Shown here: piece after piece, positions 8,413 through 56,739 of the stretch
Layout of the letters: every line of letters starts with the position of its first letter
How positions within the stretch are numbered: the stretch's first letter is position 1
NCBI GenBank assembly: GCA_029775925.1
Contig: JARVKB010000010.1
Location: forward strand, 1 to 56,739
Direction of reading: 5' to 3'
DNA length: 56,739 bases
From: Nitrososphaeria archaeon
GTDB taxonomy: Archaea; Thermoproteota; Nitrososphaeria; Nitrososphaerales; JACAEJ01
The notes under the pieces: generated by a model
The model's database searches: none
The model's input: only the letters and a program-made list of their open reading frames with translations
What the model was told of the DNA's origin: nothing
Translations under genes and position numbers: made by a program

Positions 8413-8431
8413 CTCATAGCACTATATTTTT

Positions 8432-8442
8432 CTATATATAAA
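8432..8442 (-). promoter_or_regulatory. TATA box of the hydrogenase operon
   Basis: On the minus strand the sequence is TTTATATATAG, centred about 25 nt before the ATG at 8412. It is the strongest TATA match upstream of the operon and supports a leaderless transcript beginning at that ATG, which in turn supports the frameshift reading of the signal peptide. Confidence 0.65.
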
Positions 8443-8521
8443 TCTTAATTGATAAGTTCAATTTCTAGGCTATCCTTATTTTCCAAAAGATTGATGGAAA
8501 AAGTGCATCAATCCTTGTCTT

Positions 8522-38863: not shown

Positions 38864-38870
38864 ATACAGA

Positions 38871-39914
38871 TTATAATCCATACTTTCCTTTAAAGTCTAT
38901 GTTAATGTGCTTCCTCAAATTAGAAGCTTCCTTTGATAATCTACTCAAGTTATCAGCATGGTTTAACTCTCTCCAGCAAGATAAAGAATCTAAAATAGCA
39001 TGAAGAGCTAACATTTTTAACTCTTTTCCTATGTAATAATTTGCTTCATCCTCAAAGCTTCTTCCGGCTAATTCCATATACTTTTTTCCAAATTTTTTAA
39101 AAAGTGATAACGCTATAAGAGATAGCCAAAAATTAGAACCTTTTAAATCGTCCATAAGGTTAGGGTTTAAATTTTTATTCAATATAGCTCTCACAATATT
39201 TTCTATTCTTTCTACAGATGCTCTATTTGGATAGATTATCTTATCATCTCTTATTATCCTATTATTTAATTTGATCCTTTTTTTAGTATTAATTTCTTCG
39301 GGATAGTTTATGTTGAAAAAAGAATTCAATTCTTTATCAATTTCTCTCAAATTCTCAACATTAATAAGATAAGATTTTCTACTACATCTTATCATATCAT
39401 CTGATCTCCATCTCTTAAGTTTAAGAAGAGCAGGGTAGCAAAGTAATACGTGCTTTCTTCTATAAATGGAAATAAGAGGTTCAACCTTGCCATCTGGCCA
39501 TAAAGGTGAGATAACATCGTAACCTTTTGCTTTATCTACTAATAATTTAAGAACATCTTCTCTTACATATGGTGCATCACAAGGTAAAATTAAAATAAAA
39601 TCATCATTTATTACTTTAGTGCTAGTTGCAAGACCTACGAGAGGACTATGCCCAAATTTTCTTAAGTCTGGGATTATGCTAAGATTGGGATAATTTTTAG
39701 AGAAAATATTCAAATATTTTTTTACCTGCTTTTCATTCCTTACTATTATGGCAACTTTATCGGATATTTTATAGGCTGTATCTATGATCCATTCTATCAT
39801 CTTCTTTCCATTTAAAATTTCCAAAGCCTTATCTTTTCTCTTATAACCAGGTTTCTGAAAACGTCTACTTTCTCCACCAGATAAAATAGCAACACCAACA
39901 CCCATTAATTGCAC
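38871..39914 (-). CDS. MobA-like nucleotidyltransferase with an extra helical C-terminal domain
   Basis: Residues 1-205 are a molybdenum-cofactor guanylyltransferase-like domain: the nucleotide loop AILSGGESRRFQKPG, RKDKALEILNGKKMIEWIID, ILPCDAPYVREDVLKLL with the metal-binding aspartate, and VISPLWPDGKVEPLISIY. The last 140 residues are not part of MobA: an all-helical region (RIENIVRAILNKNLNPNLMD, FWLSLIALSLFKKFGKKYME, YIGKELKMLALHAILDSLS) without recognisable motif, resembling a HEPN- or nucleic-acid-linked helical bundle only in general composition. The substrate may be Mo/W cofactor or another phospho-ligand. Start ATG 39914 or 39905. No moa genes are nearby. Confidence 0.78.
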   Translation of the reverse strand: MQLMGVGVAILSGGESRRFQKPGYKRKDKALEILNGKKMIEWIIDTAYKISDKVAIIVRNEKQVKKYLNIFSKNYPNLSIIPDLRKFGHSPLVGLATSTKVINDDFILILPCDAPYVREDVLKLLVDKAKGYDVISPLWPDGKVEPLISIYRRKHVLLCYPALLKLKRWRSDDMIRCSRKSYLINVENLREIDKELNSFFNINYPEEINTKKRIKLNNRIIRDDKIIYPNRASVERIENIVRAILNKNLNPNLMDDLKGSNFWLSLIALSLFKKFGKKYMELAGRSFEDEANYYIGKELKMLALHAILDSLSCWRELNHADNLSRLSKEASNLRKHINIDFKGKYGL

Positions 39915-40070
39915 CTAATTCTATTTTTACTCGACTTAAATTAAATTTAGTACTGAAAAAAGTGTTACGAATAATAAAATCATATCGTTTAGGCTAGTCT
40001 TTGATAAAATCCATTAAAGTTGCTTCATTCAAATGAAAATATTCTGTTTAGGTAATTTGATAAAAACCTA

Positions 40071-41249
40071 TTAATACCATAGCCCCAACATTTTATCGAT
40101 GAAATCTTCTGCAAATTTGAGTTCCTTATCCTTTAGTATCTGTCTTTCAGCATGTTCTAAGGCATTTTGAAGGGCATTTGAGAAGCCCCAACCATTACTT
40201 ACACCTACGTATTGCCCTCCTTCGCTCTTGATCATAATTCGACAGTGAATAAATGGTAAGTTTCTCCACTTCTCTCTATGCTGCTTAAAGTAGACCGTGA
40301 TTACACCTTCACCTAGATGGTCTGAATACTTTCTAGCAAAGGAATCTGTATCAGCCAACATGCGCTCATATTCCGTACTGTCGATGCTCATTCGGTTAAA
40401 GGAAAATTGGATTAAAAGTCCCCTTTTAATTAATCTTTTTTCTTGGGCTATAGCACTCAGTATATCGTTTTTAGTCACAATACCTGCTATCCTGCCTTTA
40501 TCTAAAACGATTAATGAAGCTATATTGTGCTCGAGCATAAGTTGAACTGCACCTTTAAGTGTAGTATTTGGAGAGATGGTTATCACGGGTTTTGTCATTA
40601 CTCCCTTAACAGGATTGCTTAAAGGTTTAGGCTTATCTCCAGCAAAGTCTCCAAACCTGATCCTATCTCTTGGTAGAATAACATGTTCTACAATATCATG
40701 TATGCTAACAATTCCAACTAACTTGTCACCTCTAACTACAGGAAGTCTAGATACGCCTTCTTCCCTCATTAAAGCCATAGCACTAGCTATAGAAGCATTT
40801 TCTTCAATGACTTTGGGCTCCTTAGTCATTATATCCTTTACTGGTTTTAAGCCAAAGGGTCCATTAACAGCTTTCTCTAAAACATTTACATCTGCAACTA
40901 AGCCAACAATATTACTGTCTTCAATCACTGGAATGTGTTTAATATCATTATCAACCATCAATATAACAGCTTCAATGGTATCGTCTTTTGGATTCAATTT
41001 AGGTGCAGGTCTATATACTGTCTTAACTTTAGTCTTTTTAGGATCAAGCCTCGACCTGATTATCATGCGTTCAGTAAGTACGCCTTTGTAGTTTCCTTTA
41101 GAATCTACAACTATGAGTGCTTCAGTAGGCTTGGCCTTACCTTCTTTAAACATACCTATTACTTTTGAGAGAAACTCATCTTCTTTAACGACATTAAAAG
41201 TCCTAGACATGATATCTTCAACTTTACCGAGTCTCTCAACAAATTCCAT
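40071..41249 (-). CDS. Four-CBS protein with a C-terminal HPF/S30AE-like domain
   Basis: Four CBS motifs (VEDIMSRTFNVVKEDEF, a second near 75-130, VKDIMTKEPKVIEENAS, VKGVMTKPVITISPNTT) make two Bateman modules. The last 120 residues (RLIKRGLLIQFSFNRMSID, YSDHLGEGVITVYFKQHRE, NALQNALEHAERQILKDKEL) resemble the ribosome hibernation factor fold HPF/S30AE. A ribosome-bound archaeal hibernation factor with CBS domains has been reported in Pyrobaculum, and this protein has that architecture. It may sense AMP or ATP and silence ribosomes when energy is low. Ligand and binding are inferred. ATG at 41249. Confidence 0.82.
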   Translation of the reverse strand: MEFVERLGKVEDIMSRTFNVVKEDEFLSKVIGMFKEGKAKPTEALIVVDSKGNYKGVLTERMIIRSRLDPKKTKVKTVYRPAPKLNPKDDTIEAVILMVDNDIKHIPVIEDSNIVGLVADVNVLEKAVNGPFGLKPVKDIMTKEPKVIEENASIASAMALMREEGVSRLPVVRGDKLVGIVSIHDIVEHVILPRDRIRFGDFAGDKPKPLSNPVKGVMTKPVITISPNTTLKGAVQLMLEHNIASLIVLDKGRIAGIVTKNDILSAIAQEKRLIKRGLLIQFSFNRMSIDSTEYERMLADTDSFARKYSDHLGEGVITVYFKQHREKWRNLPFIHCRIMIKSEGGQYVGVSNGWGFSNALQNALEHAERQILKDKELKFAEDFIDKMLGLWY

Positions 41250-41523
41250 AAAAATCCAACCTAAATAATGCTTGATCTACTTTTTCCCTAACTTAACAAT
41301 CATTTCCTTAATCACTTATATACCTTCCTGTAACATATAATCTAAAATTCGACTATTCTTCAAAAATTTAAATAATTTCTCAGAAATCTTTATTCTCATT
41401 AAATAAAGAAGACTTAGAGGGAAAATTAATAAAAAACTAGAAGAAAAAAAGAAAGGCTAAAAAGAGTAAAAGAGGACCATAGAAAATCAGTACTTATTCC
41501 CTAAGCTGAAGCAAAAAATTACC

Positions 41524-42933
41524 TTAACTTTGTTTTGCTTTTTTCTTGCCTGGTTCAGTTAAGGCATAAGGATCGAGAATTTTACCAATAATGTCTTCAG
41601 GAAGTAATTTCTTCTCTAATACTACCTCTTTTATGGTTTTATTATTAGCTATTGCTTCTTGGACAATCTTTGCAGTAGCATCAAAGCCAATGTATGGGTT
41701 TAATGCTAAGGCTAATCCGGGGCTACGCTCTACCATATCCCTACATCTTTTCTCGTTGGCAGTAATTCCTAATACGAGCTTTTCTGTGAACACATGTATG
41801 GAATTCTTCAATATGTGTAAAGATTGTATCAAATTAAAGGCGATAACAGGCATCATAACATTAAGCTCAAGTTGCCCTGCTTGCGATGCAAGAGTTATTG
41901 TCAAATCATTTCCTATCACTTGAAAGGCTACCATGTCCATAGCTTCTGCAATTACAGGATTTACTTTGCCAGGCATTATGGATGATCCGGGTTGGACTGC
42001 AGGTAAATTTATCTCATTCAATCCTGTAACGGGCCCAGAGCTCATCAATCTAATATCATTGGCAATTTTAATCATATCTGTTGCTAATGTTTTAAGGGCA
42101 TTTGATAATTCTACAAAATCACTCATAGACTGAGTTTTCGCTATTAAATTTTTAGCACTACGAAGATTGAGACCAGTATACATTCTTAATTTTTCCACAA
42201 CCAGCTTGACGTATTCTGGCTCTGCATTTAAGCCTGTACCAACCGCTGTTGCGCCTATATTCAAATCTTCTAAAGCAATAGATGCCCTCTCTATCCTCTC
42301 AATATTCTCAGAAATTATGAAAGCGTAAGCATTAAAAACTTGACCCAATCTTATAGGCGCAGCATCTTCAAGGTGAGTCCTTCCAGGTTTTACGATTTTA
42401 TCAAATTCTATCGCTTTTCTCTTAAAAGCTTCCTCGAGATTTTTAAGCTCAAAAATCAATTTCCGAATTAAAAAGAGGCAAGAAATTCGCATTATCGTAG
42501 GAAATACATCGTTTGTAGATTGCGCCATATTTACATGATCATTGGGATGAACAATTCTATAATCTCCTTTTTTTCCTCCTAATAATTCTATAGCTCTGTT
42601 TGCAATAACTTCATTAGCATTCATGTTATGGGATGTTCCTGCTCCTGCTTGGAACACGTCCACTAAAAATTGCTCATGATATTTACCATTTATTATTTCG
42701 TCAGCAGCATTTATAATTGCTCTTCCAATTCTTTCATCTAAGTCTCCTATCATCATATTCGCTTCAGCACAAGCTTTCTTTACTAGCGCAGTAGCTCTTA
42801 TAAACTCTGGATGAGCTTTTATTCCGCTAATAGGAAAATTCTCTATAGCTCTTAAAGTCTGAATACCGTAATAGGCATCTTCAGGTATCTCTTTCTCTCC
42901 AAGATAATCCTTCTCTATCCTTTTCTTATCCAT
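41524..42933 (-). CDS. aspA: Aspartate ammonia-lyase (fumarase/aspartase superfamily)
   Basis: Interconverts aspartate with fumarate and ammonia. The 469 residues carry the superfamily signature GSSIMPGKVNPVIAEAMD. Aspartase-like N-terminal text EKDYLGEKEIPEDAYYGIQT and RAIENFPISG, the stretch GAGTSHNMNANEVIANRA, and NDHVNMAQSTNDVFPT favour aspartase over class II fumarase, but the two are close and only an assay or phylogeny decides. In this window it links amino acid use to central metabolism. Followed by ThyX 26 nt upstream on the same strand (thyX precedes it), so the two may be co-transcribed. Confidence 0.88.
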   Translation of the reverse strand: MDKKRIEKDYLGEKEIPEDAYYGIQTLRAIENFPISGIKAHPEFIRATALVKKACAEANMMIGDLDERIGRAIINAADEIINGKYHEQFLVDVFQAGAGTSHNMNANEVIANRAIELLGGKKGDYRIVHPNDHVNMAQSTNDVFPTIMRISCLFLIRKLIFELKNLEEAFKRKAIEFDKIVKPGRTHLEDAAPIRLGQVFNAYAFIISENIERIERASIALEDLNIGATAVGTGLNAEPEYVKLVVEKLRMYTGLNLRSAKNLIAKTQSMSDFVELSNALKTLATDMIKIANDIRLMSSGPVTGLNEINLPAVQPGSSIMPGKVNPVIAEAMDMVAFQVIGNDLTITLASQAGQLELNVMMPVIAFNLIQSLHILKNSIHVFTEKLVLGITANEKRCRDMVERSPGLALALNPYIGFDATAKIVQEAIANNKTIKEVVLEKKLLPEDIIGKILDPYALTEPGKKKAKQS

Positions 42934-42959
42934 GCATAAAGATCAAAAATATGTTATGT

Positions 42960-43772
42960 TTAACCTTTTATAATATAGGAAAAAACCTTATGGGAAAGAT
43001 TTAAATCACTTAAATCTATCTCCAATAAAGCTCCCTTCTCTGCTTTCTCAAAAGATAATCTATAATTCAAAAGTAACTCGTCCAACTTAATCAATCTTTC
43101 TAATGCATATTTATCTTTACTTGCAGGAGAATCAAAGTTTTTGAATATAGTCGGGGCTATAAGCTTAGCAAGAGAAAGCATTGCCCAAGATACATCTCTA
43201 ATTTCCCATTGCGCTGCACTATCACATCTTTGACTAAATATGTGTCTGAACTCCCTCGGATTTGCCGTTATGGTTATATTGGTTTTACATGCAGATGGTA
43301 TCACAAATCTAGCATCTTCTTTATGAAAACCTATTTCTGAATAAGCTTTGTACATTTGTTCACTAATAGTCATAAAATCATCATAGTTAAGCTCGATTTT
43401 AGTATTGTTAACTTTAATTTGGAATTTTTCATTCTTTATGGATGGTGGCTTTATATACCATTCATTTTTTCCTATTTTTACATGCCTTTGGCTTTGTTGG
43501 GAAAAAGAAGCAATTCTGTGCCTCACTAATTGATGAGTTAAAACTCTAGAAACGTTCTCTAAACTATAGGTTAAAGAGCCATGTTCCATTACATCGTAAT
43601 GTCCTAATTGAAGAGCCTTCTCTAGCATCCTTTTTACATCAGCATCGCTTAGTAGATCTTTTCTAAGATAAAGCTCAGATGATGAATGTTGAGAGTAACA
43701 AGACCTCATGGCTGAGGCGCAAACTCTCTCAAGGTTAGGAGTATATGAAATGAGAAATACTTTCGTTTCCAT
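42960..43772 (-). CDS. thyX: Flavin-dependent thymidylate synthase
   Basis: Makes dTMP from dUMP with methylene-folate and FAD. The ThyX motif RHR-x7-S is RHRIASFSQQS (residues 84-94), with DVMEHGSLTYSLENVSRVLT upstream and FRHIFSQRCDSAAQWEIRD downstream. 270 residues, ATG 43772. ThyX and a class II ribonucleotide reductase often occur together in anaerobes. Upstream lies the decayed Mrp gene, downstream the aspartase gene, all on the minus strand. Confidence 0.95.
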   Translation of the reverse strand: METKVFLISYTPNLERVCASAMRSCYSQHSSSELYLRKDLLSDADVKRMLEKALQLGHYDVMEHGSLTYSLENVSRVLTHQLVRHRIASFSQQSQRHVKIGKNEWYIKPPSIKNEKFQIKVNNTKIELNYDDFMTISEQMYKAYSEIGFHKEDARFVIPSACKTNITITANPREFRHIFSQRCDSAAQWEIRDVSWAMLSLAKLIAPTIFKNFDSPASKDKYALERLIKLDELLLNYRLSFEKAEKGALLEIDLSDLNLSHKVFSYIIKG

Positions 43773-43823
43773 AATTTTAGTATGAATTTTCGGATTATAA
43801 AAAGATTGGACTAAAAACTTAAT

Positions 43824-44557
43824 TCATCTCGACCATGCTATAGACTGTCTTATACTCGTTTTCTTAACCACTTCTTCTAAATTAAGTCTTGGGGTTCTAG
43901 TGATTTTTACAAAGTCTGGATTAAAGTAATCCTCAAGCTTATCTTGATCAGATAATTTAGAAATCATGAGATCTTAAGGAATCTTGCTAAGGAATTGCAT
44001 CCCCAAATCTTCTGCAACCTCGAGCCCTTTAGAAGGTCCATAAAGTTCTACCTTCTCTCCAAAATTAGAACATTCTAAATAACTCATGTTTTCTATTGGA
44101 CCTATAATAGGCATTCCATATGCTTTGCTATATTCGTAACTTTTTTCACAATTGTTGTGCAAGATATAAAAATGGATAAGTTGCATCATTCGTGCTAGGA
44201 AGGCGATCCATTCAGTAAATAATGGAGCTCCCAATAAACATCCTGAAAAGTTGCTTTATAGCAGAGTTAATGATATGACTCTCTAAATAATAGGAGCAGT
44301 AGGATCATAGAGTAAAAGGTTTATAGATATTATTTTTATTCCTGACCCTGTTAATACAGGGTTTATTCCAAAATCCCCTTTCGTAGATCTTTTATTTAAA
44401 CCAAATATCTTTGCTATACTCGAGCCTGTTATGTCAGCATCTAATACGCCAAACTCATGCTTTCGTCTTTAATTCTATAGCAAGCGTTCCAGTCACAAAG
44501 GATTTTTTCCTACTACCTTTCCAGAGACGGTCACAATCAAATTTCTTTCTTATCCAT
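43824..44557 (-). pseudogene. Decayed Mrp/NBP35-type P-loop ATPase gene
   Basis: Fragments in different frames spell out the whole of an Mrp/ApbC iron-sulfur carrier. From ATG 44557 come VTVSGK then FVTGTLAIELK (worn P-loop and first helix), followed in other frames by a DADITGSSI-like region, KGDFGINPVLTGSGIKIISI and YDPTAPII, then SAIKQLF, and finally one frame with GMPIIGPIENMSYLECSNFG, GPSKGLEVAEDLGMQFLSKI and, after an in-frame TAA at 43974, ISKLSDQDKLEDYFNPDF. The P-loop GKGGVGKS has lost its spacing, there are several frameshifts and stops, and one CxxC cysteine is replaced (CSNF). Not functional as read. A TATA-like ATATAAAA survives before the start. Confidence 0.85.
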
Positions 44558-44632
44558 TTTTATATCTTTACTTTAAATTCTGAAAAGTTTAATTAATCCG
44601 ATCTCAAAGTATAGTAAGTAAATAGAGCAAAA

Positions 44633-44944
44633 TTGACAACAAAAGTAAGTGTAAATCCAGGCGCATGCAAAAGAAATGTAATCATTTACGCTAATAAATT
44701 GAATTCAAAAGTTATTTTAAACATTGAATCTGATTGCCCAAGCGTTGTAGAACTTTCTAAAAAGATAAGTGAGATAAGTATAAAAGAGATGGCAAAAAGA
44801 ATGGATAATAATATAGTATATAAAGCTGCTTCTGAAGCAAAACTTCATCCAACATGTCCTGTCCCTTTAGCCATACTCAAAGCAATCGAAGCAGAATTTG
44901 GTTTAGCATTAAAAAAGGATGTTAAAATATTGTTTATGGATTAA
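44633..44944 (+). CDS. Small DUF6951-type protein with three conserved-looking cysteines
   Basis: A 103-residue protein resembling a family best known from methanogens (DUF6951): VNPGACKRNVIIYANKL, ESDCPSVVELSKKISEI, and KLHPTCPVPLAILKAIEAEFG. Cysteines at 12, 35 and 75 lie in the family's conserved positions and suggest a metal or redox site, but no activity is known. TTG start at 44633. It is divergent from the decayed Mrp gene, about 75 nt apart. The neighbouring loss of an FeS carrier and a possible cysteine metal site may be coincidental. Confidence 0.72.
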   Translation: MTTKVSVNPGACKRNVIIYANKLNSKVILNIESDCPSVVELSKKISEISIKEMAKRMDNNIVYKAASEAKLHPTCPVPLAILKAIEAEFGLALKKDVKILFMD

Positions 44945-45392
44945 ACACTCATAGACAAAAAATTATTTCAGATTTAAGTCTTTTAACTCTATAGCATTAA
45001 AACCTATTCTGACTGCTTCTGGTATCAATGCTTATATAATCCGAATAAATGCACAACTTTTATCTATAAACGTAGTAGTTATTTTTATTAAGCTGGTTTA
45101 ACAGTTTTCTAAAGGTCCGTTTGAAGATGATACATTATTATCAATAAGGTACTGTGCCTTACTTAATATAACTTCTACATAAAATTAACCAATTCCTTAT
45201 CAGTATGGTCTTTGAAAATAGATGGCAAATAATTGTTAAACTTGATTCTATCTAATATTTAACTTTACATAACAAAAGCTTCAGGTAATGTGCTGAACTC
45301 ATAATTTTTATAGTATATCGTTTAGTATAATTTTATTTTGACAATTTACGAATAAGTTAAAATAGAGAGAAGAAAAGGAAAAATGAATTTAA
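44945..45392. other. Intergenic stretch, possibly decayed coding DNA
   Basis: No intact gene and no RNA-like G+C island. On the minus strand several short frames look protein-like, for example FNNYLPSIFKDHTDKELVNF and, in another frame, ALIPEAVRIGFNAIELKDLN, separated by stops, so a worn-out gene is possible. I cannot name it. The last 60 nt carry the TATA-rich promoter of the ThiI-like gene. Confidence 0.35.
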
Positions 45393-46586
45393 TTGAGGGA
45401 TTATAAAGTCCTCGTTTCATTATCTGAGTGTATTGATACTTCATCTAAAAGGCTTCTTGCAAGGCAAATATCTACATCATTGAAATTATCAGGATTGCAT
45501 TTTTTTAATAAAGAAATAAGACGGAATATCATTTTGATAGATTCTAATGATCCTGTTCACGCGGCTGAAGCTATATCAAAAATACCGGGTGTGGATTTTA
45601 CTGCCATAGTAAGGACCACATCATCAAAATATGATGATGTGGTTGAATCGATAGTAGAAACTGGGACGGATTTAATATATCCTAACGAGACTTTTGATGT
45701 ACGGGCAGATATAAAAGGTTCTTTACCCTATCTTAGCAGGGACATAGAATTTGCAACCTGCGCAAGAATCATAGGGGAGTTAGGTGATAAAAATGTAAGA
45801 CAAAATAGGAAGAACCCATCAAAAATAATTTATGCAAATATAGAGGATGAAATGGCATGTGTATTTTACTACAAATATGATGGGCCAGGAGGCAGGCCTG
45901 TCGGATCGCAAGGAAAAGCGGTATGTCCATTATTCGGTGATAATGAGAGCGCTGTAGCAAGCTGGTTGATGATTAAGCAAGGAATATTCCCTTATTTTTT
46001 ATTTTTCGATTTTAGACCATATTCCGATAACTTTCATGAAAAGAGAGTAATAACAATAGCAACTTTACTTAGAGAATTTTTACCTATTAAAAGATATAAT
46101 ATTACTGCTTTAAGGATGGGCATAGTTATAGAAAGGTTAGGGCAGTTTTGTCCTTCTAAAATCTTACAATTCTTAATTAATAGAATAACATTAAGAACTA
46201 CATGCGCTTATGCTCGAAGAATTGGTATAAATACTATCGTGGGTGGAGAAAACTTAGAAAAAAATAGCCTTGAAAATATAAAAGACTCTCTTAGAATATC
46301 TTCAAATTATAAAGTGCAGATTTTATTTCCATTAATAGGGTTGAGTAAAAAAGAAATACATGATTATTCAAAAAGAATTGGAATATTTAAGTTCACAAAA
46401 GAAAGAAAATCAGAAGGATTTATGACCAAAAAATGTAAAGAAGCAATAATAGGATTGGAAAGAAAATTGGAAATAGACAAAATTGTTGAAGAAATCTTAA
46501 GTAAAGCCGTCCCAATCGATCTTGGGAGAGGTTTCAACGATTTTCATGAAATTCTAAACCGATACTTTTCTCAAGATCTCAAATAA
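45393..46586 (+). CDS. ThiI-like THUMP/PP-loop protein with a degenerate ATP-binding motif
   Basis: The 397 residues have the ThiI layout: an N-terminal ferredoxin-like/THUMP half (about 1-170; AAEAISKIPGVDFTAIVRT, FDVRADIKGSLPYLSRDIEF) and a C-terminal PP-loop ATPase half. The join GPGGRPVGSQGKAVCPL is typical of ThiI. The following pyrophosphate motif, normally SGGxDSPVA, reads FGDNESAVAS at 181-190, losing the glycine pair and aspartate. The C-terminal half otherwise keeps RITLRTTCAYARRIGINTIV and LIGLSKKEIHDYS. It may bind tRNA without adenylating it, or use a variant mechanism. 4-thiouridine synthesis should not be assumed. TTG start at 45393. Confidence 0.8.
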   Translation: MRDYKVLVSLSECIDTSSKRLLARQISTSLKLSGLHFFNKEIRRNIILIDSNDPVHAAEAISKIPGVDFTAIVRTTSSKYDDVVESIVETGTDLIYPNETFDVRADIKGSLPYLSRDIEFATCARIIGELGDKNVRQNRKNPSKIIYANIEDEMACVFYYKYDGPGGRPVGSQGKAVCPLFGDNESAVASWLMIKQGIFPYFLFFDFRPYSDNFHEKRVITIATLLREFLPIKRYNITALRMGIVIERLGQFCPSKILQFLINRITLRTTCAYARRIGINTIVGGENLEKNSLENIKDSLRISSNYKVQILFPLIGLSKKEIHDYSKRIGIFKFTKERKSEGFMTKKCKEAIIGLERKLEIDKIVEEILSKAVPIDLGRGFNDFHEILNRYFSQDLK

Positions 46587-46616
46587 ACATATGTTAAATC
46601 ATGAATTCAAGGTTAA

Positions 46617-46626
46617 GCTTATATGT
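46617..46626 (+). promoter_or_regulatory. TATA box of the first structured RNA
   Basis: AGCTTATATG, centred about 26 nt before 46648, where a G+C-rich folded segment begins. It supports plus-strand transcription of that segment. Confidence 0.45.
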
Positions 46627-46647
46627 ATTTATAGCTTTATAGATTTA

Positions 46648-46800
46648 TGCGGGCAATGAAGATGATGGCCCTGGCGATCGATGAGCTAGATCTTGAGTGC
46701 TGAGCTAGCAGGTAGGCGGGGCATGACTCGCCTATCTATTACGTAGATTCGTAGGGAATCTTGCGTAGCATGCTCATGGCTTTAACTTGTCAGGACTCTG
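46648..46800 (+). ncRNA. Structured RNA candidate 1, family not assigned
   Basis: A G+C-rich island in AT-rich DNA (59 of the 120 bases from 46681 to 46800 by hand count) with no reading frame. On the plus strand it can fold as: 5' hairpin GGGC/GCCC; long-range stems CCTG (46670-46673)/CAGG (46791-46794) and ATGAGC (46681-46686)/GCTCAT (46772-46777); and inside these, hairpins AGGTAGGCG/CGCCTATCT and AGATTC/GAATCT. A TATA box precedes it by about 26 nt and a T-rich tail (CTGCTTTTATTAT) follows. It contains ATGATGG and CTGA, reminiscent of C/D boxes, but the spacing does not make a normal C/D guide. No RNase P or SRP core motif is seen. Confidence 0.6.
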
Positions 46801-46948
46801 CTTTTATTATATCTTCCAGAAGTCGAATCTATTATAGAGTACGAAATTGTTGTCAATGAGACTCTTATTATGAGGGAAAGAAAGGACGGCAATTGCTCTG
46901 GTTATTAGAAAATTAAATTCAACATAAGGTAAAAATTTTAGAGTTAAA

Positions 46949-47299
46949 TCACCCTATCAAATATATTATCACAAGTGAAGACGTTATGTAAAGTGATATG
47001 CCTAATACTATGGCTTGAGCAAATCCTATCCTTGATAAGAAAAAGATAAAGGTAAGTAGGTAAATTATCCATGACGGAGTTAAAAGAACTAAACCTTTCG
47101 CATAAGAGAGAGTAGCGTCCAAACCAGATTCTAAGTATATTATCAAAAAAGTAGTAAAGGTTACTGAAGGGAAGAGGGCTATAAAAGCTGCTAATAAACC
47201 TTTTCCCTCGCTACCAATAAATACGGTAGTACTTACCACAATCCCTCCTAAAATGAAATAGAGTAAAAGAAAATCGAGATTCAATTTCTTAACCTCCAT
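46949..47299 (-). CDS. Small four-helix membrane protein (DUF3147-like)
   Basis: A 116-residue protein with four hydrophobic segments: LLYFILGGIVVSTTVFIG, LLAAFIALFPSVTFTTFLII, AKGLVLLTPSWIIYLLTFIF and FAQAIVLGISLYITSSLVII. A proline in the second helix and ESGLD in the loop recall the DUF3147 family, but I am not sure. No transport motif is visible. It lies between two structured RNA candidates, neither of which overlaps it; whether they are functionally linked is unknown. ATG at 47299. Confidence 0.6.
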   Translation of the reverse strand: MEVKKLNLDFLLLYFILGGIVVSTTVFIGSEGKGLLAAFIALFPSVTFTTFLIIYLESGLDATLSYAKGLVLLTPSWIIYLLTFIFFLSRIGFAQAIVLGISLYITSSLVIIYLIG

Positions 47300-47529
47300 G
47301 ATCCTTAAGCCTCCAAATGCTGTTTTTAACCTTTTATCTTAATCGATATTAAATTAACATTATTTATATTTGTAATCATCCTATAAAATAATTTGATTTT
47401 CTTTTTTTACAATAATTTCAAACAGTAACATGACTACTTGCAATATCTTTTCGTTTAATGATGGTTAAATAGATAGCTATAAAGGCAATCAAAAAATGTA
47501 GACAATAATTATGAGAGAAAAATATGGAA

Positions 47530-47760
47530 GGTTACCCAACTCTCGGCGTGGATGTGGCTTTCCAGTCTTGTAACGTATGTGATTTTACTCCTACGTTACC
47601 TTACTGGTTGGCCCTCGTTTGATCATAAGAGGAGCCTTGTGGTTTTCCACAAGCTTCACATCTTAGTGATCAAACGACTGTCGACCCGCGCGGCATGTCA
47701 AGGCTTCCCCTGACATGCGAGTTCGATCGACAGACCCACACCTTTTCCGGTTGGGTAACT
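47530..47760 (-). ncRNA. Structured RNA candidate 2, family not assigned
   Basis: A 230-nt G+C-rich island (91 of 180 bases from 47581 to 47760) closed by a perfect 10-bp helix, GTTACCCAAC (47531-47540) with GTTGGGTAAC (47750-47759). A second stem (47545-47551/47736-47742, one mismatch) follows inward. Inside are three adjoining hairpin arms: 47562-47607 (CCAGT/ACTGG, a 3x3 internal loop, GTAACGTA/TACGTTAC), 47615-47677 (11-bp perfect stem, then CTTGTGG/CCACAAG closing a 4-nt loop), and 47678-47733 (CTGTCGA/TCGACAG, then CATGTCA/TGACATG). Minus-strand transcription is favoured: a TATA box lies 28 nt upstream and a T-run (TATTTTTCTC) just downstream. It has no SRP helix-8 or RNase P core, and no reading frame. 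Confidence 0.75.
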
Positions 47761-47783
47761 GTCAATTATATGGTTGGAAATCT

Positions 47784-47791
47784 ATTTATAT
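47784..47791 (-). promoter_or_regulatory. TATA box of structured RNA candidate 2
   Basis: On the minus strand ATATAAAT (within AAATATAAATAG) is centred about 28 nt before the first base of the closing helix at 47760. It is a strong archaeal TATA match with nothing else to drive on this strand before the RNA. Confidence 0.6.
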
Positions 47792-47847
47792 TTAATGATC
47801 AAAAAAGGAATCATATAAGTCAATATTTTTTAACAAAAAAAGCATTT

Positions 47848-50800
47848 TCATTTAATAGCTTTTACTAGAGCATCTGTGAGCTCAAGATTTGTTATAACAG
47901 GTATGCCAAACTCTACCGCCTTTCTCCTTATTATATAATCATCATCTAATGCTCTCATAGAGTCTGTTCCTTCTAATTTCAAAATATTGATGACCAGTTT
48001 TATCCTTTGATTTATCAAGTAATCGAGAATATTTGGTTTTTTACTCTCGCTTACTTTATATAGTATTTCACATTTTATATCATTCTTTATCAAGGTTTCT
48101 GCTGTGTGCTTCGTTGCATATATTTTAAACTCTTTTTCTAAGAACTTTTTGGCAATAGGAACTATGCTCTCTTTATAACCACCAACTGTGATTAGAATAG
48201 AATCTCCTTTTTTGGGTAAGTTCAAACCACCAGCGATAAGCGCTTTTAGAAAAGCTTCTTCAAAATTCTCACCAAAACAAGCCACTTCTCCTGTAGAAAC
48301 CATCTCAACACCTGTTACAGGGTCTGCACCTTCTAGTCTCATAAAAGAGAATTGGGGGACCTTTACGCTAAATTTATTTACTGAAGCTTCACCATCTTTT
48401 ATCTCTTCTCCCAAAATGGCATCTGCAGCTATTTCCATGAGATTTATTCCAGTCGTCTTTGACACAAAGGGCATACTCCTTGATGCCCTTAAATTGCACT
48501 CTATAACGTAGAGTTCTCCATCCTTTACTATATACTGGATGTTAAAAGGACCTTTTATGTTCAATCTTCTGGCGATTCTCCTTGTGTAGTCTCTTATTTT
48601 GTCTTTGATATGGTTTTGAATATTGATGGTTGGTATACACATCGTAGCGTCTCCTGAGTGTACTCCTGCATTCTCTACATGCTCTATTATTGCACCTATG
48701 AAGACGTTCTTTCCATCACAAACCCCATCAACTTCTACTTCTTTAGCATTTGTAATGAATTTTGATATAACTACGGGGTGCTCCTTCGATACTTTAGTCG
48801 CCTTCATCAAATAATCTTCCAAATTTTCTTCATTGAAAGCTACATTCATCGCAGAACCAGAAAGGACATAGGACGGCCTTACTAATACAGGATAACCTAT
48901 CTTTCTTGCAAATTCTTTTGCCTTCTCTATCGTCTCTAACCTACTCCAATCAGGTTGCTTTATCCCTAATTCATCAAGTATCATGCTAAACTTTGATCTA
49001 TCTTCAGCGCTGTCTATGTCCTCAGCAGACGTTCCCAATATTTTGACATTATTCCTTGCAAGCTTCATAGCTAAATTGTTGGGTATTTGTCCTCCTACAC
49101 TCACGACTACTCCGTCTGGGTTTTCTTTTTCAATTATATCTAGAACTCTTTCCAAATTTAATTCCTCGAAGTATAGCTTATCGAGAACATCATAATCAGT
49201 TGAGACGGTCTCTGGGTTATAGTTTATCATTATGACCTCTTCTATATTCTTCTTTTTTAGAGCCCATGCCATATTCACGCAGCACCAGTCAAATTCTACA
49301 CTTGAACCTATTCTGTAACAGCCAGAGCCAAGAACAACGACTTTGCTTTTTCTCGATATTTCTATATCGTCTGTTTGGCCATTATACGTGAGGTATAGGT
49401 AGTTGGTAATAGCCGGCCATTCTGCTGCAAGAGTGTCTATCTGTTTTATCACTGGCAATATTCCTAAAGATTTTCTTATCTTCCTGATTTCTGATTCGCT
49501 CTTTCCAACTATCTCACCAATCTTTTTATCTGAAAAACCAAGCTGTTTGGCTTTTTTTATTATCTCTGGAGTAAAATTCTTTTTTATCAATTCCTGAAAT
49601 TCTACTATATTTTTTATCTTGTTTAAGAACCAAGGATCTATGCCAGTCAACTTAGAAATTCTTTCTACATTTATCCCAAATTGCAAAGCTTTAACGATAT
49701 AGAATATTCTTTCATCAGTTGGATTCTCTAACTCATGTTCTATCTTTTCTATAGCAAAAATATCATTCTTACCAACTTTTAAATCATCAACATCTGTTAA
49801 TTCTTTGTCTATATCGAGCATTCTTACGGCTTTCTGCAAAGCTTCTTCAAAAGTCCTACCGATGCCCATAACTTCTCCTACAGATTTCATCTGGGTGCCG
49901 ATCCTTCTGTTCACATATTTGAACTTCTGGAAATCCCATCTCGGAATTTTAACTATGACATAATCTAATGCAGGTTCAAAACAGGCAGTAGTAATCCCTG
50001 TAACTTTATTTATTAATTCTGGTAAAGTATAACCAATTGCAAGTTTTGCAGCTATATATGCTATAGGATAGCCAGTGGCTTTTGATGCAAGGGCAGAACT
50101 TCTTGATAATCTTGAATTTACTTCTATTACTTTGAACTCTTCAGAGTTAGGGTTTAAGGCAAATTGTATATTACATTCTCCTATTATTCCTAAAGCTCTT
50201 ACTACTTTAAAACTCGTCAATCTTAAAGTATGATACTCTCTATTCGTCAAAGTTTGAGATGGAGCAACAACAATACTCTCCCCTGTATGAATTCCCATAG
50301 GATCAAAATTTTCCATATTGCACACGATCACACAATTGTCGTTAATATCTCTCATCACTTCGTACTCAACTTCTTTCCACTTGCCAAGGTATTCTTCAAT
50401 CAAGACTTGTTTTATTCTACTATGGGCCAAACCTCTAGAAACAATCTCTGCCAATTCTTCTCTATTGTGTGCTACCCCTGATCCTTGACCACCGAGTGTA
50501 TAAGCAACTCTTACCATTACTGGATAACCTATCTTATTGGCTACTCGTATTGCTTCTTCAATAGAATTTGCCTTCTCGCTTTTTGGAATCGGTATCCCGT
50601 TCTCTAACATGGTTTTTCTGAAGAGATCTCTATCGTCGGCGATCTTTATTGCTTCAATACCTGTCCCTATAACTTTTACATTGTATTTCTCTAAAATTCC
50701 TCTTTCTGCTAATTCTACGCCGCAATTTAGAGCGGTTTGGCCTCCAAAACCTAAGAGTATTCCGTCAGGTCTCTCCTCTTCTATTATTTTCTCAACAAAT

Positions 50801-51015
50801 TCTGAATTTATCGGAAGAAAGTAAACCCTGTCTACAAATTTATTATCAGTCTGAATCGTTGCTATATTCGGATTTACTAATATTGTTTTTATTCCCTCTT
50901 CTTTGAGTGCTTTTATGGCTTGTGCACCCGAATAATCAAACTCTCCGGCCTCTCCTATTTTTATGGCTCCGCTTCCTAAGATCAAAACTTTTTTTATCCA
51001 ATCAAACTTTGGCAA
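47848..51015 (-). CDS. carB: Carbamoyl-phosphate synthase large subunit
   Basis: The ammonia-using synthetase half of carbamoyl-phosphate synthase, feeding pyrimidine and arginine synthesis. The 1055 residues contain two duplicated ATP-grasp modules: the first begins VLILGSGAIKIGEAGEFDYS, with LGGQGSGVAHNREEL; the second begins VVLGSGCYRIGSSVEFDWCC, with SGSAMNVAFNEENL. The C-terminal 140 residues are the MGS-like allosteric domain (GDSILITVGGYKES, AVEFGIPVITNLELTDALV). ATG 51015 overlaps the end of carA by 14 nt, so both are made from one mRNA. Length is normal. Confidence 0.97.
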   Translation of the reverse strand: MPKFDWIKKVLILGSGAIKIGEAGEFDYSGAQAIKALKEEGIKTILVNPNIATIQTDNKFVDRVYFLPINSEFVEKIIEEERPDGILLGFGGQTALNCGVELAERGILEKYNVKVIGTGIEAIKIADDRDLFRKTMLENGIPIPKSEKANSIEEAIRVANKIGYPVMVRVAYTLGGQGSGVAHNREELAEIVSRGLAHSRIKQVLIEEYLGKWKEVEYEVMRDINDNCVIVCNMENFDPMGIHTGESIVVAPSQTLTNREYHTLRLTSFKVVRALGIIGECNIQFALNPNSEEFKVIEVNSRLSRSSALASKATGYPIAYIAAKLAIGYTLPELINKVTGITTACFEPALDYVIVKIPRWDFQKFKYVNRRIGTQMKSVGEVMGIGRTFEEALQKAVRMLDIDKELTDVDDLKVGKNDIFAIEKIEHELENPTDERIFYIVKALQFGINVERISKLTGIDPWFLNKIKNIVEFQELIKKNFTPEIIKKAKQLGFSDKKIGEIVGKSESEIRKIRKSLGILPVIKQIDTLAAEWPAITNYLYLTYNGQTDDIEISRKSKVVVLGSGCYRIGSSVEFDWCCVNMAWALKKKNIEEVIMINYNPETVSTDYDVLDKLYFEELNLERVLDIIEKENPDGVVVSVGGQIPNNLAMKLARNNVKILGTSAEDIDSAEDRSKFSMILDELGIKQPDWSRLETIEKAKEFARKIGYPVLVRPSYVLSGSAMNVAFNEENLEDYLMKATKVSKEHPVVISKFITNAKEVEVDGVCDGKNVFIGAIIEHVENAGVHSGDATMCIPTINIQNHIKDKIRDYTRRIARRLNIKGPFNIQYIVKDGELYVIECNLRASRSMPFVSKTTGINLMEIAADAILGEEIKDGEASVNKFSVKVPQFSFMRLEGADPVTGVEMVSTGEVACFGENFEEAFLKALIAGGLNLPKKGDSILITVGGYKESIVPIAKKFLEKEFKIYATKHTAETLIKNDIKCEILYKVSESKKPNILDYLINQRIKLVINILKLEGTDSMRALDDDYIIRRKAVEFGIPVITNLELTDALVKAIK

Positions 51016-52129
51016 ATTTTTTTACCTCTTTTAAGAAATAATCGAAAAGAAAACCTGACTCATAAGGTCCAGGAGACGCTTCTGGATGGAATTGAGTTCC
51101 AAATACAGGCTTCTTTTTATGCTTTATACCTTCTACAGTCTTATCATTCACATTCTTGAACCATACATCAAACTCCGTCCCTTCTAAACTTTCAGCATTT
51201 ATGGAATAACCATGATTTTGACTTGTTATGTAGCATTTTCCATCGTATAAATCTATGCAAGGATGGTTCTGGCCTCTATGTCCAAACTTCAACTTATACG
51301 TATCAGCACCTGTAGCGAGGGCAAGAATCTGATTACCAAGACAAATCCCCATTACAGGTAAATCTGTTTCCAAGATTTCTCTAACAACTCTAATGGTCTT
51401 ATCACATTTTTTAGGATCGCCCGGGCCGTTAGAGATGACTATGCCTGAAGGATTTAACCCCAGAATTTTTTCAGCTGAATAATCATACGGGACTCTTATA
51501 ACACTCATACCTCTTTGTAAAAGATTTCTTAGGATGCCAAATTTCGTACCACAATCTATTACCACAACTTTCAACAAACCTCCAGAGTTATATTCGATAG
51601 GTTTGTTTATCGTTACCTCTTTTACAAGATCTTTTTTATTAGGGTCTTGTATCTTTTCTAATTTCGATTCAATTTCCCTTAAATCTATCTCTTCAGCCAC
51701 TTTAAGAATCCCTAGCATCGTGCCTTTGATTCTTATCCTCTTGGTTAGCTCCCTTGTATCTATGCCCTCTATGCCGGGAATCTTTTGCTCATATAGCCAT
51801 TCATTTAATGACTTTTTATTAGACCAGTGGCTAGGTTTTTGGGCGAGCGAATATATCACGTAACCTCTAACTTGAATTCTATTAGATTCAAAATGTAAAG
51901 GAATTTCGAATTCGTCAGTAATTGAATAAGGTGGCACACCATAGTTGCCAATTAGAGGATAAGTTTGAATCAATATCTGGCCAAAGTAAGATGGATCTGT
52001 CAGAGATTCAGTATAGCCTGTCATGCCTGTATTAAAAACAACTTCTCCCGAAACTTCATAAGGATAACCAAAACCATTTCCTTCTAATATCGTTCCGTCT
52101 TCTAAAGCTAAAATTGCTTTAGCCAACAT
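51002..52129 (-). CDS. carA: Carbamoyl-phosphate synthase small subunit (glutaminase)
   Basis: Hydrolyses glutamine and channels ammonia to CarB. The 375 residues have the N-terminal CPS domain (GNGFGYPYEVSGEVVFNTGM with the substrate region TGYTESLTDPSYFGQIL) and a class I amidotransferase: nucleophile cysteine in LPVMGICLGNQILAL, and His-Glu in FGTQFHPEASPGP. KFGHRGQNHPC is also typical. ATG at 52129, with a TATA-like TTTTTATTATAATC on the minus strand about 25-30 nt before a short leader. Confidence 0.97.
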   Translation of the reverse strand: MLAKAILALEDGTILEGNGFGYPYEVSGEVVFNTGMTGYTESLTDPSYFGQILIQTYPLIGNYGVPPYSITDEFEIPLHFESNRIQVRGYVIYSLAQKPSHWSNKKSLNEWLYEQKIPGIEGIDTRELTKRIRIKGTMLGILKVAEEIDLREIESKLEKIQDPNKKDLVKEVTINKPIEYNSGGLLKVVVIDCGTKFGILRNLLQRGMSVIRVPYDYSAEKILGLNPSGIVISNGPGDPKKCDKTIRVVREILETDLPVMGICLGNQILALATGADTYKLKFGHRGQNHPCIDLYDGKCYITSQNHGYSINAESLEGTEFDVWFKNVNDKTVEGIKHKKKPVFGTQFHPEASPGPYESGFLFDYFLKEVKKFAKV

Positions 52130-52454
52130 CTACACCTATTCGAGAAGTCTTTGGGATTATAATAAAAATATGGTAAGCGAGGAATAAACAGCCGCCCATA
52201 GAAGGGAAGTGCAGTATTTCCATCTTTTAGTTTTTTGTTTCCTGCTCCGTACACATGCACTCTTTGGCTACACCTTATAATAAGTGAAATTATCTACTAA
52301 TAAATTTTTTCATTACTTGTTCAAATTTTATTAAAACTCTTCTCATATAATTTCTTTTTATAATGTGGTTCAAGCTTCAAGCGTTTTCTTATCAATTTTC
52401 TTTACTATTCGACTTTCGAAATGATTTAAATCTAAGCGTCGATCTATTAAAGTT
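52130..52454. other. Divergent promoter region of carA and the sugar nucleotidyltransferase gene
   Basis: No gene. It holds the carA promoter at its left end and, at its right end, a TATA-like GATTTAAAT at about 52422-52430 serving the ATG at 52455. A short less AT-rich stretch at 52185-52275 shows no stable fold or open frame that I can support. Confidence 0.45.
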
Positions 52455-53738
52455 ATGAAAATAGAAGATTTAAGGTGCTTTATCCCTGTTGGAGGTAAAG
52501 CTTTGAGGTTAAGACCTTTAACTCAAGATGTTTCTAAGCCTTGTATAAGATTCCTAAATAGGCCTCTTATTGAATTTGCCATGCTTGAGCTAGCTAAGCA
52601 GGGCGTTAGAAACTTCATTTTTGGAGAAAACGGCTACATAAATTATACAAACCTTTTTGATCAATATGGAGAAGGGGTTGGTTTTTCTGCAAAGTATAAA
52701 ATTGAACCAAGGGTGCACATTAAACATCAACCTAACTTAGACGATTTAGGAAGCGCTGATTCATATAGGCTGAACATGGAATACTATGATGTAAACGATC
52801 CCGTTATCGTTGTACAAGGAGATAACATCTTTAAAATCGATCTCAACGATTTTTTGGAAAAACATGAAGAAAGAGGGGCGATGATGAGTATCGCTCTCTT
52901 TAGGGTAGAGAATGTTGAAGATTATGGTGTAGCAGAATTAGGGCCAGATATGAGAATAAAAAGATTCATCGAAAAACCTTCATCAAGCGAGGCTCCAAGC
53001 AATTACGTCAATGCTGGCATATATCTTCTTTCACCAGAAATTAGAAAAGAGGTTGAAAGTGAAGATGTAATTAAAATAAGAGAGAAAAATGGAAGATTAG
53101 ATTTTGGTTACGACTTTATTCCCTATCTAGTGAATAAAGGTATACCTGTTTATGGCTATGAGTTGCAAATATGGTACGATTTGGGGACTCCAGAAAGTTA
53201 TTTGAAGGCTATGAGAGATGTTCTTTACGGTGTTTTGGATATAGGGGTTACAGAAGAGCGACTATTCCCAGGCAAGAACATTTGGGTTCAGGGATATAGC
53301 AAAGAATCTATAAAGAGGAGGGAGGAAATACTAAGAAAATGTAAAGAGAATAAGCTATACATAGAAGGGGCAGCTTTAATTGGAAGGCACACAAGGATAG
53401 GTGATTATACGAGAATCATAGACTCTAACATTGACAACTTTTGTATAATTGGAGAAAGAGTAGGTGTAAAAAATTCAGCCATCATGGATGCTGGTAGGAT
53501 CGGAGATTGTGCGCAAGTATCTGATAGCATTCTAGGTAGAAAGGTTGTAATAGAGTCGACTTTTCAAAATCCTACATATATTGAATCGATGTCTATTATA
53601 GGAAACGCTGTGCATATCAAAGAAGGTTGCAAATTAATAAGGACTAAAGTTAATCCAGGTCTAACGATTCCGCCACGAATGACTTATATAGATAAATTTC
53701 TTCAAAGCCATGAGGACATAGTGAAGTTAGCTGAATAA
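52455..53738 (+). CDS. Sugar-phosphate nucleotidyltransferase with a left-handed beta-helix
   Basis: Activates a sugar phosphate to an NDP-sugar for glycans, S-layer glycosylation or cell-surface polymers. The N-terminal Rossmann domain has FIPVGGKALRLRPLTQDVSK (nucleotide loop), VVQGDNIFKIDLNDF (metal aspartate), YGVAELGPDMRIKRFIEKPS, NAGIYLLSPEI and YDLGTPESYLKAM. Residues from about 300 form a hexapeptide repeat beta-helix (IGRHTRIGDYTRIIDSNIDN). This layout fits glucose-1-phosphate thymidylyl- or mannose-1-phosphate guanylyltransferases; the exact nucleotide and sugar are not determinable. 427 residues, complete. The decayed surface-protein gene follows directly. Confidence 0.88.
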   Translation: MKIEDLRCFIPVGGKALRLRPLTQDVSKPCIRFLNRPLIEFAMLELAKQGVRNFIFGENGYINYTNLFDQYGEGVGFSAKYKIEPRVHIKHQPNLDDLGSADSYRLNMEYYDVNDPVIVVQGDNIFKIDLNDFLEKHEERGAMMSIALFRVENVEDYGVAELGPDMRIKRFIEKPSSSEAPSNYVNAGIYLLSPEIRKEVESEDVIKIREKNGRLDFGYDFIPYLVNKGIPVYGYELQIWYDLGTPESYLKAMRDVLYGVLDIGVTEERLFPGKNIWVQGYSKESIKRREEILRKCKENKLYIEGAALIGRHTRIGDYTRIIDSNIDNFCIIGERVGVKNSAIMDAGRIGDCAQVSDSILGRKVVIESTFQNPTYIESMSIIGNAVHIKEGCKLIRTKVNPGLTIPPRMTYIDKFLQSHEDIVKLAE

Positions 53739-54283
53739 ACAAAGTCTGGGAAATACCAATGTAAATGACAAGGAAGTCGATGTAAGTGATTCTAGAATAA
53801 CCACAACTTCGAATGATGGAGAAAGAATCTTTGAAGCTAACTTTGTAAACAAAAAGAATTACAAATTGTATAATTTTACTTTCGATCAAACAGAATCTAT
53901 TTACGAAACCTACGCTGCGAATACAAGAACGAGTAAGATAGCTGGCTTTGCCCACCAACCTACGAATGGCATCTTTAGGGTTCATACATACTTAATGCGC
54001 CATATCCCGTGGGTTATAGCAAATATTAACCCAGAGCTATTCGAACAAGCCAAAAAGGCATCTTTTAGACTGGGACTATGCAGACTACTTTTACATCATC
54101 TCATCTCCTACTTATAGCGGCTATAGGATAGAGCACGACCCAACTTACACAGCTTATCTAATCATAGTGTCTGCACCGATCTTAAAATTAGGTGCTGGTA
54201 TTCTTATAATTATCATAATGGTAGTTACAATAACCTATTTCTTACTAATTCGAAGAAGAAAGTCAAAAATCGATACCTATTGA
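53739..54283 (+). pseudogene. Decayed 3' part of a membrane-anchored surface-protein gene
   Basis: Two abutting frames encode a beta-rich segment (NFVNKKNYKLYNFTFDQTES, KIAGFAHQPTNGIFRVHTYL, PWVIANINPELFEQAKKASF) and then, after a frameshift near 54060, DYADYFYIISSPTYSGYRIE and a C-terminal anchor LKLGAGILIIIIMVVTITYF followed by RRRKSK. There is no start codon or signal peptide: the frame runs into the end of the upstream gene. Truncation plus frameshift indicate a pseudogene of a secreted protein built like those at 25.6 and 55.6 kb. An 83-codon ATG frame inside it (53866-54117) should not be taken as a gene. Confidence 0.75.
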
Positions 54284-54387
54284 TCTTAAGAACTTCTTTA
54301 GTATCCCTTTAATAGTCCTCATGTGTTCTCTCATTCACACCTTTTTGCACTATAGTAAAAAAGATGCGCATTCAACTCTCCATGGTA

Positions 54388-54462
54388 TGCGGAGTGCGGG
54401 ATTTGAACCCGCGACCTTCAGCTTGGGGGGCTGACATCCTAACCAGGCTAGACCAACTCCGC
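54388..54462 (-). tRNA. tRNA-Gly (CCC) with an unusual C33
   Basis: On the minus strand, acceptor GCGGAGT/ACTCCGC with discriminator A, D arm GTCT/GGAT with wobble pairs, anticodon stem TCAGC/GCTGA, variable AGGTC, T arm GCGGG/CCCGC. The loop is CCCCCAA, giving anticodon CCC, decoding glycine GGG. Position 33, universally U, reads C in this sequence. The acceptor GCG start and A73 agree with archaeal glycine identity. 75 nt, no intron, no encoded CCA. Confidence 0.9.
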
Positions 54463-54508
54463 CTAAGTATACTTAACAAAAAGAAGTTTTTATTCTTAAT
54501 TATTTTAA

Positions 54509-55522
54509 CTAAACTTTCATCCCACATATAATTGCTATCATCAAGGATGAAGCTACGATATCAGCAGTAGTTCCGGGGTTTAATTTATTTTTAGAATCTC
54601 TCAATTCTTTGTCAAAATGCTCCAATGCTTTCTTACCTTTTTCAGAGGTTAATCCTCCAAGTCTTAAAATCATCTTTGCTTTTTTTGAAATCTTTTTAGA
54701 TTCAATGATTCCTATGTTGATTGCCTCATTTATATTTTGTGTACGCTCCAACCCTACTTTTCTGGCGATAAGTGTATCAGGGTGCTTTGCCAATATTGTC
54801 AAAAAAGTATGGACAGTCGCTGTATTGATATCGCCTGTCTTCTCATAAACATCTAAAAGTGTCTTGTAACCTAAATTAAAAGAAATTCTCATGCCTGTGG
54901 TTAACTCTTTAGCCACGTTATCCCATTTTGAAGAGATTTTCATCAAATCGTATAATCGAATTTTTTGCTTTATTATTTTGTCCTTTGCATCAGCATCCCT
55001 AAAATCTGGGGCAATATCTGGACTTAACTGTCCTAAAGATGAGGTATTAGACTCTAGAATAGCATCCCAAACATCAAGAGCATCTTGATAAGTAGTAGCC
55101 TTCATAATCTTGGATAAAGTTGAACGTAATCCACTGGGCTCTATATTCCCAAATTTTGTGGTCATAAATCCTGCTGATGCTGCTAATGGAATTAAGAGTA
55201 ACACTATGCCTAAATGAGTGTTCCCTCCTTTATGCCAATTTCTTACTTCATGAATGGCTTTTTTTATATATCTGCCAATACTTATCCTACTGAGTTTAAT
55301 ACGACCTAGACCTGCATTCATCCCCATCAATGCTACATCCCTTATATGAGGACCGATGGCTATTGAGCCAGCTAGGTAGTGCTCAAATCTTGTATCCATA
55401 AAATCTGCATTTCTATGCACATTACCAGGCTTAGGTGTCCCACTAACTTCTAGAGCTGATGCGAGCTGGGCTGCAATCATTATATCGTTAGCCTTTTTTA
55501 TAAGGTCGTTCTCCATTACCAT
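54509..55522 (-). CDS. CitG/MdcB-family (triphosphoribosyl-dephospho-CoA synthase-like) protein
   Basis: A 337-residue all-helical protein of COG1767. Family landmarks are LEVSGTPKPGNVHRNADFMD near the N-terminus, IAIGPHIRDVALMG, NWHKGGNTHLGIVLLLIPLA and the C-terminal LNPGTTADIVASSLMI. In bacteria the family makes the prosthetic-group precursor of citrate or malonate lyases, but archaeal members occur without those lyases and probably act on another nucleotide or cofactor substrate. No partner enzyme is nearby. ATG 55522, or 55516 two codons in. Located 46 nt downstream of tRNA-Gly on the same strand. Confidence 0.85.
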   Translation of the reverse strand: MVMENDLIKKANDIMIAAQLASALEVSGTPKPGNVHRNADFMDTRFEHYLAGSIAIGPHIRDVALMGMNAGLGRIKLSRISIGRYIKKAIHEVRNWHKGGNTHLGIVLLLIPLAASAGFMTTKFGNIEPSGLRSTLSKIMKATTYQDALDVWDAILESNTSSLGQLSPDIAPDFRDADAKDKIIKQKIRLYDLMKISSKWDNVAKELTTGMRISFNLGYKTLLDVYEKTGDINTATVHTFLTILAKHPDTLIARKVGLERTQNINEAINIGIIESKKISKKAKMILRLGGLTSEKGKKALEHFDKELRDSKNKLNPGTTADIVASSLMIAIICGMKV

Positions 55523-55631
55523 GGAATTATTTTGAGATATTTTTTATACTTTAATTTTTGACAAGATTATCTAACTCATTTGAGTAACTTACTATTTAAA
55601 TACGTGGATTATTTGATGTAATGTGGTAATA

Positions 55632-56552: not shown

Positions 56553-56559
56553 ATGAGTA

Positions 56560-56739
56560 GTGATAAGTAATTATAAACTTCGTGAAGGAGATTTTATTAG
56601 GATTTATGACGAAACGATCTTCGAAGTAAAAGGATTATGCCATCCTCTAGAAAGGGTAATCGCCTTCATTAGGTACATTAGAGACCCGATGGGTGATAGG
56701 AAGCTAAATGGTAAATCTTATAGAAAAGTTTACTCCATG
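56560..56739 (+). CDS. Predicted nucleotidyltransferase-domain protein, N-terminal fragment
   Basis: Sixty codons from a GTG at 56560 run off the window edge. The text YKLREGDFIRIYDETIFEVK, then GLCHPLERVIAFIRYI and a GDRKLNGKSYRKVYS stretch, resembles the start of the archaeal COG1665 proteins that combine this region with a Pol-beta-type nucleotidyltransferase domain. The catalytic GS/DxD part is beyond the edge, so the assignment rests on the N-terminus alone. It is 7 nt downstream of the secreted-protein stop, in the same direction. Confidence 0.6.
   Translation, partial: MISNYKLREGDFIRIYDETIFEVKGLCHPLERVIAFIRYIRDPMGDRKLNGKSYRKVYSM

Follow-up and report, generated by a model that had tools for sequence, protein, structure and literature searches.

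The window analysed here, a stretch of 56,739 nucleotides from a Nitrososphaeria archaeon, carries on its minus strand what is almost certainly the autonomous gene of a previously undescribed RNA family, as judged by comparison of homologous sequences. It is probable, from the same comparisons, that this structural RNA homodimerises in a symmetric fashion, as the pattern of self-complementary bases in one of its internal loops suggests that RNA copies pair with each other. More tentatively, we put forward a fuller reading in which members of this new Nitrososphaeria family would build the symmetric homodimer as a paranemic double kiss, in which both strands of that loop take part, possibly together with a neighbouring protein of PD-(D/E)XK fold.

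The RNA gene (47530..47763, minus strand, approximately 225–234 nt) was delimited by its predicted fold, by matches to the covariance models R1 and R2 described below and by covariation. An earlier note on this DNA had drawn attention to a G+C-rich island at 47530–47760, and the G+C content there is indeed 51%, against 35% for the window. The minus strand of the island has a folding energy of –116.3 kcal/mol, compared with –63.3 ± 4.7 in 200 shuffles (z –11.3). The plus strand scores nearly as high (z –10.4), because hairpin-rich DNA folds either way. The minus strand is identified as that of the RNA by the promoter, by the direction in which the invariant motifs read and by numerous conserved G-U pairs, whose opposite-strand equivalents would be C-A. 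The TATA box and downstream T-run that the note had reported on this strand are both present: the former (TATAAATA, 47783..47790) lies 24–31 nt upstream of the closing helix, whilst the latter (TTTTT, 47518..47522) is a likely terminator. Nor was any open reading frame of at least 60 amino acids found to overlap the element, in line with the note's description of it as non-coding. A scan for sigma-70-type promoters and bacterial terminators gave nothing above chance, as expected in an archaeon.

The RNA matches no known Rfam family. When all 4,227 Rfam 15 families were compared with the window, only tRNAs reached the gathering score; a permissive scan of the locus itself gave noise only, and homologues from other families were likewise without an Rfam match to the element. 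(One of the tRNAs, at 9832–9933 on the plus strand, was missed by ARAGORN and has a length that suggests an intron; elsewhere in the window, at 4901–9028 on the minus strand, translations were read as an [NiFe] hydrogenase cluster with large and small subunits, a cytochrome b-like membrane subunit and a maturation protease.) The archaeal SRP RNA (RF01857) and RNase P RNA (RF00373) resemble the element in being stable, G+C-rich RNAs of 200–300 nt in an AT-rich archaeal genome, but neither model matches the locus and both RNAs are encoded elsewhere in the same genome (1.40 Mb in 34 contigs, 96% complete), the SRP RNA at G000:C4:40995-41307 (E 4.5e-32) and the RNase P RNA at G000:C21:10038-10320 (E 8.4e-72). 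Both identities were thus rejected, as the note had proposed. Group I introns are another structured RNA reported in Thaumarchaeota, where they are found inside rRNA genes (PMC6125680); the element, by contrast, is free-standing and intergenic, and no group I family of Rfam matches it. No description of the RNA was found in the open-licence literature.

How widely is the RNA distributed? BLAST identified relatives with 86 and 85% identity within the genus, 78% within the family and 73% (over 110 nt) in a second family. The covariance model R1, built from four sequences, had matches spanning the whole model in 32 of 250 genomes of the order, and in the window a 221-nt core (47535–47755) covers all 223 of its positions. 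A second model, R2, built from a 41-sequence alignment, gave matches, nearly all of them full length, in 75 of the 400 genomes sampled from the order and in 20 of 66 genera; among good-quality genomes of the order, the figure was 47 of 209. Outside the order, R2 matched a single genome in a different order and a single one in a different class of the phylum (E 2.2e-30). In addition, named genomes were scanned with a conserved-core pattern, GGGCNAACYN{30,50}RGAAAGCCACAT, which was found in Nitrosocaldus, Nitrososphaera-type and other thaumarchaeotal records (order Nitrososphaerales). Applied to pattern-selected loci, R1 recognised those from Nitrososphaeria/Thaumarchaeota and gave noise-level scores to bacterial ones. 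A Bathyarchaeota pattern match was rejected, as the model gave no match, and two matches on viral contigs are put down to chance, the better of them sitting within an open reading frame read as an HNH-type endonuclease.

At the margins of the family, many genomes of genus g41 have matches that are weak (E 6e-8 to 5e-3) yet full length, and in six of six checked these are flanked by the same genes; they are probably family members. No copy was seen in three genomes of g3, a sister genus belonging to the same family as the window's genome, or in many genera of family f10, so that the RNA is either accessory or has sometimes diverged beyond detection. Many complete genomes of the order also have no detectable copy and the RNA is therefore not universally essential; its patchy distribution fits an accessory role better than a housekeeping one.

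The predicted structure consists of two closing helices and three arms that leave a common junction. P1, the 10-bp end helix of the earlier note, pairs 47750..47759 with 47531..47540 (minus strand, as are all the features that follow), and all six of its modelled pairs change on both sides in homologues, with 95.9% of cells paired. The 9-bp P2 (5′ strand 47734..47742; 3′ strand 47545..47555, including the end of the invariant GAAAGCCACAU) leads into the junction and has seven of nine pairs with changes on both sides. Arm A (47678..47733) comprises a lower stem, an internal loop, an upper stem and a purine-rich tip; both-sided changes are seen at all seven lower-stem pairs and at eight of ten in the upper stem. 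Arm B (47615..47677) is a long stem with a 7-bp tip in which seven of eight lower-stem pairs change on both sides and the tip pairs co-vary. Arm C (47556..47613) has an invariant base (GGGCNAAC / GAAAGCC) below a variable upper stem that also co-varies. The perfect stems already noted, of 11 bp and 7 bp (arm B and its tip) and 8 bp (arm C), can all be found in the sequence. GGGCNAAC and GAAAGCCACAU, which form the base of arm C and the strand entering P2, are unchanged in the 41-sequence seed alignment, with GGGC-N-AAC and GAAAGCCACAU invariant in 41 of 41.

Compensatory change was quantified in two alignments. In a 30-sequence alignment that was fitted to the structure, and so leans towards it, both partners change in 66 of 79 pairs, with a covariation score of 0.474 versus 0.199 when shuffled. 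A MAFFT alignment, which was not structure-fitted, has 43 of 52 pairs changing on both sides and a score of 0.603, against 0.258 for shuffled alignments and at most 0.140 for slid partners. None of 500 shuffles reached the covariation observed. The earlier note had named a confident Rfam hit and a lack of covariation among homologues as the computable grounds for doubting its dedicated minus-strand RNA gene of no known family. No family matched, the compensatory change is very strong, and the proposal stands.

Within arm A, both strands of the internal loop tend towards self-complementarity. In the window copy only the 3′ strand is a perfect palindrome, CCGCGCGG (47686..47693), and this is the proposed homodimer contact on the basis of homologue comparison. 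Elsewhere the same strand reads CUGUGCAG, UGGUACCA, CUGGCGCCAG, CCGUAUGG or CCAUAUGG, with UCUGGCCAGA, UCUUGCAAGA, UCCAUGGA, UCUAUAGA and UUCUAGAA as further versions in other lineages. Across 59 sequences the 3′ strand gives z 10.3, with 22 distinct self-complementary stretches of at least 8 nt built on 11 distinct cores, and the 5′ strand gives z 5.2 with 15 distinct stretches; 42 of the 59 have a stretch of at least 8 nt in one strand or the other, versus 11.5 expected, the shuffles behind these and the following statistics ignoring the relatedness of the sequences. In 34 distinct cases, 57 of the 68 pairs at the centre of the 3′ palindrome (two per case) are standard, compared with a mean of 36 and a maximum of 49 in 2,000 shuffles, a count for which the centre was moved one position by hand in family f2. 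With one fixed centre for all families, the 3′ centre ranks first along the RNA (0.78; mean 0.36, sd 0.11) and second place falls to the 5′ strand of that loop. Eighteen sequences left out of alignment building show the same tendency. Neither this loop nor the taxonomic reach of the RNA had been picked up in the earlier note.

Adjacent central bases cannot pair within one molecule and their co-variation therefore points to an RNA–RNA contact. Co-variation at adjacent self-complementary loop bases is also what Kretsch et al. used in support of intermolecular contacts in OLE and GOLLD (PMC12286853), and it is found here in the same form, with self-complementary bases co-varying at adjacent positions. 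The main competitor to a dimer, which we regard as possible though doubtful, is that the RNA is an autonomous but monomeric RNP scaffold, its palindromic strands being due to something else, such as a protein partner that is itself symmetric or local non-canonical folding. Such a scaffold would explain the family and its autonomy equally well, and the invariant motifs round the junction do resemble a protein site. Moreover, the palindrome is broken in the divergent g41 set, in several of the copies of genome G175, in some members of f11 and in G003, from the window's own family, and in some members only the outer palindrome pairs remain. Set against this, neighbouring bases at the palindrome centre co-vary through 11 different tetramers, a pattern that no hairpin accounts for, and at a fixed protein site one would expect the sequence itself to be kept, not its self-complementarity.

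That the RNA has a gene of its own, be it monomer or dimer, is indicated by its surroundings. TATA-like matches (at least 7 of 8) occur at the expected distance in 43% of 53 homologue loci but in only 3.5% of random windows, and T-rich tracts follow the terminal helix in many homologues. The upstream neighbour in family f1 is carB, with other genes elsewhere, whilst the genes downstream lie on either strand, often convergently, and differ between families. As the neighbouring genes vary, the RNA is autonomous and not a leader. A cis-acting leader of a neighbouring gene, such as a riboswitch or an attenuator, might be suspected from family f11, where a phosphoribosyltransferase gene often follows in the same direction approximately 50 nt downstream, but the following gene in other families is either unrelated or convergently oriented, no downstream same-strand gene is conserved between families, and the element has a terminal helix of its own that often runs into a T-rich tract; we therefore consider this reading very unlikely.

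Equally improbable is that the locus is a mobile or DNA-level element, for example an inverted-repeat insertion, instead of an RNA gene. Diverged, dispersed copies are indeed present in some genomes, with five in G175, three in G231 and two each in G127, G292 and G008. Most carrier genomes have a single copy, however, and the four dispersed copies compared in G175 (77–85% identity over 265–322 nt) share only the RNA and short flanks. The promoter is also conserved, and the covariation is G-U tolerant on one strand, neither of which suits a DNA-level element. One copy (L101, G247:C294) begins 153 nt after the end of a TnpB-like gene, a proximity that might favour mobility but is probably a coincidence; a TnpB-type guide RNA was rejected, with a TnpB-like gene adjoining the RNA in only one genome among those examined. 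An apparent second copy in the window's own genome was also rejected as a duplication: the last 19,000 bases of the window (37740–56739) are identical (100%) to the start of contig C8 on the reverse strand, an unresolved overlap of contigs C8 and C10 that inflates copy counts in this genome.

Least probable of all is a modification guide RNA, for instance a three-hairpin archaeal H/ACA RNA. Like those multi-hairpin guides, with an ACA behind the last arm, the element is built of three arms that contain internal loops, and arm C is followed immediately by an invariant ACA. Its arm-A pocket, however, evolves as a pair of self-complementary strands and not as the conserved complement of a target, no consistent kink-turn or paired GA motif could be seen by eye in the 41-sequence alignment, and Rfam guide-RNA families gave no match.

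Returning to the homodimer, we envisage the following sequence of events. An archaeal promoter belonging to the gene would drive transcription of an RNA of approximately 225 nt, in which P1 and P2 would close the junction of arms A, B and C. At the junction and the invariant arm-C base (GGGCNAAC / GAAAGCCACAU), a protein or a tertiary contact may then find a fixed docking site, whilst two copies of the RNA would join through the strands of the arm-A internal loop, 5′ with 5′ and 3′ with 3′. It is this symmetric dimer that would do the work, as a trans-acting scaffold or a regulatory particle and not as a leader or guide. The pairing geometry in which both strands take part is speculative.

Among the closest known systems are bacterial RNAs. 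OLE, ROOL and GOLLD are likewise autonomous structured RNAs without a guide role, and OLE and GOLLD share with the element the co-variation of immediately adjacent self-complementary loop bases (PMC12286853). These RNAs are, however, larger and are multimers of solved structure, whereas the element is archaeal, only approximately 225 nt long and known from sequence alone; there is no sequence homology between them (the element having no Rfam match of any kind), and here it is the two strands of an internal loop, not a hairpin loop, that carry the self-complementary bases.

A possible protein partner, on structural modelling and gene proximity, is c0, a protein of approximately 220 amino acids encoded no more than about 2 kb from the RNA in families f2, f3, f7, f9 and f11 and in one f8 genome (G007, G008, G012, G016, G037, G126 and others), in variable order and orientation relative to it. 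No Pfam or NCBIfam family matched c0. A structure model from 21 sequences (pLDDT 92.5) has the PD-(D/E)XK nuclease fold as its closest structures, with weak scores. As many genomes that lack the RNA encode c0 too, and in the window's genome its gene (G000:C16:3587-4201) is not linked to the RNA, c0 is to be treated as a lead only. A search for divergent RNA copies beside c0 at eleven loci, in genomes without a model match, gave nothing above noise with filters off.

So strong a covariation signal is uncommon for a family of which no member has been described, and the RNA is present in ecologically important archaea, including ammonia oxidisers. The novelty lies in the RNA family; contact through a self-pairing loop already has bacterial precedents. 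If the dimer is real, it would extend natural RNA homo-oligomers to the archaea and would mean that evolution keeps self-complementarity across many different sequences. Should the paranemic double kiss also prove true, the RNA would be an archaeal counterpart to the bacterial RNA-only complexes, joined with a different geometry.
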